DNA of 64,000 nucleotides from Utricularia gibba. Taxonomy: Eukaryota > Streptophyta > Magnoliopsida > Lamiales > Lentibulariaceae. The translations under genes were made by a program, and so were the position numbers. Under the pieces are notes generated by a model. It worked only from the letters and a program-made list of their open reading frames with translations. It did no database searches and was not told where the DNA came from. How positions within the stretch are numbered: the first letter of the stretch is position 1; each line of letters opens with the position of its first letter. Shown here in pieces: positions 36,562 to 38,245 of the stretch. Location of the stretch: assembly GCA_002189035.1 (NCBI GenBank), contig NEEC01000019.1, forward strand, positions 2,046,001-2,110,000, read 5' to 3'.

Positions 36562-38245
36562 TGTTGGAAGTATGCTCAAAATCCATGCAATCTAGCATCC
36601 CATAATTGTTGTTCTCTCTTTTACGGCAATGTCCAGAATTATATGTTTGGAGAATGTATTTTTAAGTTGTTAAAAATATTCGACATATTCTCTTGTAACA
36701 TGTATATTCGAATGGTTCACAGTTTGAATACTTTAATTGTGCATCATAGTTGGATTAACTGTCACCTTTGTTTATTTACTGTGTTGATAAAGTGTTTATC
36801 AAGATGTCAGAATAAACATGTGGGGGCTCATGAGATGAGCTGACCGAACATGTGACGCTGAATAACATATGCATGGTATTTTACATATATCAATAAATGT
36901 TATTCAGATTGCTTTATGGAAATCCTTCGACTTGAGGTTTCATTGTGTCTTATATATTATTGTCTTAGATTTGTTACTATTTATGCTTGTTGAAATATAC
37001 AAGTCAGCGATATTGATGGTCTAAGTTGATAGTATATGAAGATCTCTGAATAACTAAGATACGATTCATTACTCCGGGTAAACGGAGATGAGACTTCAGA
37101 TTTCCTGATTGTTTCGTCGAGTAAATTCCTGGCCAGGTTGTCGAGATATTGGAATGAGATTCCAAGTTCTCATTTTGCCGTCGAAACATGAGTTCAGGAT
37201 AATCTTAATGATCTAGATGAAATGGAATTTGACTATCCATGATTCCATTCTAGATCGAAGTCTCCAATGAAGGTATATTCATAAGGATATCAATCAAAGT
37301 TCATTATTGAATATCGGATTCAATTTTAATCGGTTGAATACAATATGCAATGTTAGGCATCTCTTGTATTTTACGAGAGACACGATATGTTGGGACAATA
37401 TCGTTGTTAGAGAAATGAAATTTCTCGCCTCTCATTACTGATTAAAAATGAACCTAGTCAATCATACACACACAAAGAATTAGAAGTTGTCCGAAACGCT
37501 TGTGATTCAGGTTTTGGTAAACTCTAGCATGTCTTTATACTTGGATCATAGGTTGGTTAAATATTGATTATATGGGCTCAGGCCCATATAGGTAACCAAG
37601 GCCCAAAATAATATGGGCCACGAGGCCTAGGCCCATATTCCTAAAGGTTCAAGCCCATATTTATTAGCCCGTTTTGGAAAGCATGCCGCATTAAAATGAT
37701 TGTCATTGCTTGGCTATGAATAGGAGGCCACTTTCCTATGGTTTTTGGAGTTCTTCTTGTGGGAAGAGGTGTACAAGCTCCGAAAGAGGAAAAGCGTTCT
37801 AGGAAGAAACGAGACCGGTGAATAGCTAGAACGAGACCGGTGAATAGCGATATGAAGAAGAGAACTCGACTCTGGTTTCGAGTTTGGTAATTTTCTTCGC
37901 TTATTCCATGTGTTTCTTCTGCGTAGATAGTCGGTGTTAATATGAGATATTAGCATTGACTTTACTGTGTTTTTCCCAATATATTGATTCAATAGTTGAA
38001 TCAAATCCTGATGTTAATATGAGATATTAACAAATAGATGTTTATTTCATGAGATGGTTTAAACATATTTTAGGCAAAATGTATGTGATACATTTGTTGG
38101 TTTTAATCTAGTCGGATTAATTTGTAGTTCGTGTGGACGAGCTAGACACATCGTTGTTTCGATATTATAAACGATATAAGATATCGCTGGTTACGAAAAG
38201 GGAAAATTTTTGTTTTTCCCACCTTCCGCTGCGCGTAACCCAACA
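36562..38245 (+). mobile_element. Complete solo LTR of a copia-type retrotransposon, 1684 bp
   Basis: Starts TGTTGG at 36562 and ends CCAACA at 38245, a perfect six-base inverted terminal repeat of the TG...CA class. It is flanked on both sides by the identical five-base duplication TATAC, so both ends are exact. The beginning TGTTGGAAGTATGC resembles starts of known plant copia LTRs. There is no internal coding region, primer site or second LTR, which is the product of recombination between two LTRs. Inside are a site II cluster (37573-37657), a TATA-like CTATGAATAGG at about 37713-37723 indicating plus-strand transcription, a tandem duplication around 37809-37850 (unit with GAGACCGGTGAATAGC), and a repeated TGTTAATATGAGATATTA at about 37935 and 38012. 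Confidence 0.93.
37573..37657 (+). promoter_or_regulatory. Cluster of six TGGGCY (site II) elements plus TATA-like box in the solo LTR
   Basis: TGGGCT at 37573, GGCCCA at 37581, 37600 and 37630, TGGGCC at 37614 and AGCCCA at 37652: six elements on both strands in 85 bases. A TATA-like CTATGAATAGG follows 56 bases later. This is the layout of an LTR promoter with a TCP-responsive U3; activity is inferred. Confidence 0.6.

Follow-up and report, generated by a model that had tools for sequence, protein, structure and literature searches.

A solo LTR of a Ty1/copia retrotransposon directly behind a PLATZ gene in Utricularia gibba

What kind of element ends in TGTTGG and CCAACA, sits between two copies of TATAC, and has nothing of a retrotransposon inside? 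This question is raised by positions 36562 to 38245 of the window, the whole 64-kb stretch of DNA analyzed here. Both ends were read directly from the sequence, and the TATAC at 36557-36561 is identical to that at 38246-38250, a perfect 5-bp duplication. The segment is, with a probability of about 0.96, the solo LTR of a copia retrotransposon, left by LTR-LTR recombination. The features of the locus are as follows:

36557..36561, plus strand: left copy of the target-site duplication, TATAC, from the sequence
36562..38245, plus strand: solo LTR of 1684 bp (TGTTGG...CCAACA); its Ty1/copia family occupies about 30 places in the assembly
38246..38250, plus strand: right-hand TATAC of the target-site duplication; the PBS that would follow a 5' LTR here is absent
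38372..39327, minus strand: PLATZ gene, approximate extent from the likely N-terminal ATG to the stop, from PF04640 and the C-terminal frame

The inverted termini and TATAC flanks, first pointed out in an earlier note on this DNA, are exactly as described there. A chance pair of ends was rejected: the whole window contains 65 TGTTGG...CCAACA pairs at a spacing of 100-6000 bp, and equal 5-bp flanks occur at none but this one, where chance would give 0.06. A search of the 64-kb window with the 1684-bp LTR found neither a second LTR nor any further match. The edges of the window copy (L001) carry neither PBS nor PPT (8 mismatches to the PBS, 6 to the PPT). The internal region said by the same note to be missing is thus indeed missing, together with PBS, PPT and second LTR. 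Since both junctions are absent while the 5-bp duplication is perfect, the structure is that of a solo LTR produced by LTR-LTR recombination.

In the plant's own genome (100 Mb, 516 contigs), a search with the 1684 bases gave 67 matched pieces at about 30 places, both counts being lower bounds. The longest matches are nearly full length at 76-87% BLAST identity, and a diverged family member used as query recovered largely the same set of places. Positions 1-1684 of the window copy align with other copies' complete LTRs, which are 1661-1720 bp long. In the copies elsewhere the two ends, TGTTGGAAGTAT at the start and CGCGTAACCC(A/G)ACA at the finish, fall on the same positions of the alignment, with differing flanking DNA; because copies at unrelated sites share these terminal bases, the boundaries are those of the replicating unit. 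The earlier note had proposed this genome search, and its caveat that there might be no other copies with such ends did not hold. Two of the places, C451:4543861-4545535 on a large contig and C88:11661-13337 on a 30-kb contig, contain the same degenerate LTR copy with near-identical piece boundaries and scores, which suggests that the assembly contains redundant contigs or a haplotype that was not purged.

That the repeated unit is an LTR can be seen from what adjoins it in other copies. At C409, C414:45k and C413:2590k, a tRNA-Met PBS follows straight after the LTR 3' end, as (C)CGACA-(G/A)-TGGTATCAGAG, the gap between LTR and PBS in the PBS-bearing relatives being 1 bp. The PBS TGGTATCAGAGC, complementary to the tRNA-Met 3' end, is present at C409, C414 and C244. 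At the LTR 5' end of C4:2811k and C414:394k, the polypurine tract reads AAGTGGGAGAT-TGTTGG with zero mismatches. The copies fall into four classes:

(a) PBS only, beside the 3' end: C409:789627, C414:45688, C413:2590455; degenerate at C4:1327734; weak at C451:3935k
(b) PPT only, beside the 5' end: C4:2811610, C414:394816, C451:4948k, C2:3532k
(c) both, PPT-LTR-PBS: C244:541k, C304:984k, C402:2112k
(d) neither, perfect 5-bp duplications: window copy TATAC, C505 TTTTG, C451:5248k TTGAT, C98 AATAC, C3 (interrupted) TTTGG
(d) neither, decayed duplications: C451:4702k TAGTA/TGGTA; C413:2143k CTAAA/TCAAA

The solo structure with a perfect duplication is therefore found at four other copies as well (C505, C451:5248k, C98 and C3). 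Unequal LTR recombination reportedly gives rise to solo LTRs as well as to LTRs with PBS and PPT at their edges (PMC7251063), and classes (c) and (d) are thus expected side by side. Coding fragments of a copia element accompany the family: the C409 LTR is followed on its 3' side by copia gag (PF14223, 3e-21) and integrase (PF00665, 2e-17); the genomic piece L031 has both domains; piece L032 has PF14223, with PF00665 just below the cut-off; and family gag lies near LTRs on C244, C507, C304, C402 and C414. No partner LTR was found in seven 9.9-kb pieces beside PBS- or PPT-bearing LTRs, nor an intact element with a 5'/3' LTR pair (seven candidates, within 9.9 kb; counts are lower bounds), so the structure of the parent element is pieced together from separate partial copies. 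An unusual layout is shared by C304:981622-984123 and C402:2112376-2114862: an LTR of which roughly the first 298 and the last 67 bases remain is followed by PBS and gag and, after these, by a piece of LTR in inverted orientation (~730-1645 on C304, 789-1645 on C402). It is perhaps a defective derivative that was duplicated or mobilized.

Could the single LTR be a product of the assembly, a full-length element whose near-identical LTRs were collapsed into one? The outcome would look exactly alike, duplication included, but four other family copies are solo with perfect duplications at independent sites, and 46 private substitutions in 1199 sites make it probable that the insertion is old and that its LTRs had diverged enough to stay apart. 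On these two grounds a collapsed element was rejected as very improbable. Still harder to credit is that the 1.7-kb unit is not an LTR but a non-autonomous element, mobile by itself. In favor of this, several 1.7-kb copies occur singly between perfect 5-bp duplications, and the search yielded no intact element of the family with two LTRs; against it, the TG...CA ends and 5-bp duplications are hallmarks of LTRs, and the PBS, PPT, gag and integrase adjoining the unit in other copies led to rejection of a mobile unit that is not an LTR.

The solo LTR can thus be given a history. A full-length Ty1/copia element with ~1.7-kb LTRs, and a PBS and PPT shared with the EARE-1 group (BARE/Angela type), would have inserted at TATAC just downstream of the PLATZ gene, duplicating 5 bp of the target. 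Later, the two LTRs would have undergone homologous recombination, with loss of the entire internal region and the equivalent of one LTR, and one complete LTR would have stayed between the original target duplications. When both flanks were searched in the assembly for an empty site or allele, only self-matches were found, besides short weak matches. The sequence itself shows the identity of the LTR, its complete ends, the lack of both internal junctions, the duplication and the family membership; the former full element and the recombination step are what we infer. The earlier proposal of a copia solo LTR formed by LTR-LTR recombination is supported by the family, by its PBS- and PPT-bearing relatives and by the neighboring gag and integrase.

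The earlier note also called the event fairly recent, a view that the distances do not support. The Kimura distance from the window copy to its five nearest copies is 0.075-0.104 (nearest K = 0.075), the iqtree terminal branch leading to it measures 0.046 substitutions per site, and 46 of 1199 comparable sites (~4%) are private to it, the highest number among the six closest copies. At substitution rates of 1.3e-8 (rice) and 7e-9 (Arabidopsis), which may not be those of the host, the terminal branch corresponds to ~3.6-6.6 million years, an upper bound under those rates because the branch may partly predate the insertion. The intact duplication had been taken, together with the intact ends, as the sign of recency; at 4.6% change, however, ten duplication bases stay intact ~60% of the time, and it therefore says little on age. 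The sequence gives no date for the recombination. The locus is a well-preserved, moderately old solo LTR, an ordinary and well-understood phenomenon. It is routine evidence that the Utricularia gibba genome purges copia elements through LTR recombination; only its location just past the end of a PLATZ gene has possible consequences.

The PLATZ transcription-factor gene (PF04640, E = 8e-31) is on the minus strand, and its C-terminal frame ends with the stop TAG at 38372-38374. The right-hand duplication lies 121 bp past this stop codon and the LTR is antisense to the gene, which places the insertion in, or just beyond, the PLATZ 3' UTR. Co-option of the solo LTR as part of the 3' UTR or terminator, an addition compatible with the solo LTR reading and not an alternative to it, is unlikely: the LTR starts 121 bp after the stop codon and has AATAAA-like motifs on its antisense strand, but such motifs are expected in AT-rich DNA and nothing indicates conservation. 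That the antisense LTR might now provide the PLATZ transcript end or antisense regulation is slightly less likely again. If true, a retrotransposon scar would control a transcription factor.

Other features are present in the window. In the minus-strand stretch 35797-36241, a possible LTR end, ...CTAACA, at ~35808 is followed by TGGTATTAGAGC, which is a PBS of tRNA-Met type apart from one change, and 35971-36241 matches other genomic places at ~70%; probably a different copia element left this remnant next to the solo LTR. Two neighboring, divergent UDP-glycosyltransferase-like genes (20494-21564, minus strand; 22212-23336, plus strand) each have a frameshift at or close to the PSPG box and are either pseudogenes or carry base-level assembly errors. 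Rfam gave a single match in the window, a tRNA gene at 55639-55711 (minus strand).

Most copia lineages have LTRs shorter than 1684 bp, and to that extent the earlier remark that this one is long for a copia LTR stands; it does not stand against the group that shares its PBS and PPT, to which EARE-1 belongs. The assignment as EARE-1-like (BARE/Angela-type) is a likely one by resemblance to EARE-1 in LTR length, PBS and PPT. A literature search with the first 13 bases of the LTR gave no match. The BARE-1/Angela copia elements of grasses have LTRs of ~1.7-1.8 kb that start with TGTTGGAA, and their solo LTRs are abundant in barley. By general description, the window family resembles them in LTR length and in the start. 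EARE-1 of Excoecaria agallocha, a Ty1/copia element close to RIRE1, carries LTRs 1900 and 1916 bp long (PMC5258746). In their features the two families are alike: LTRs of 1.7-1.9 kb, TG...CA ends, a gag-integrase coding region, the PBS TGGTATCAGAGC 1 bp past the LTR, and a PPT, (T/A)AGTGGGAGAT, just ahead of the 3' LTR. The tRNA-Met PBS is common to most copia lineages and hence not Angela-specific (PMC6317226). EARE-1 copies are reportedly mostly intact with few solo LTRs (PMC5258746), whereas the family of the window LTR consists of solo LTRs and fragments. Plant solo LTRs in general are single LTRs with a 4-6 bp target-site duplication and no internal sequence (PMC7251063, PMC10373317); the window copy and its family, including the PPT-LTR-PBS recombinants, do not differ from them.
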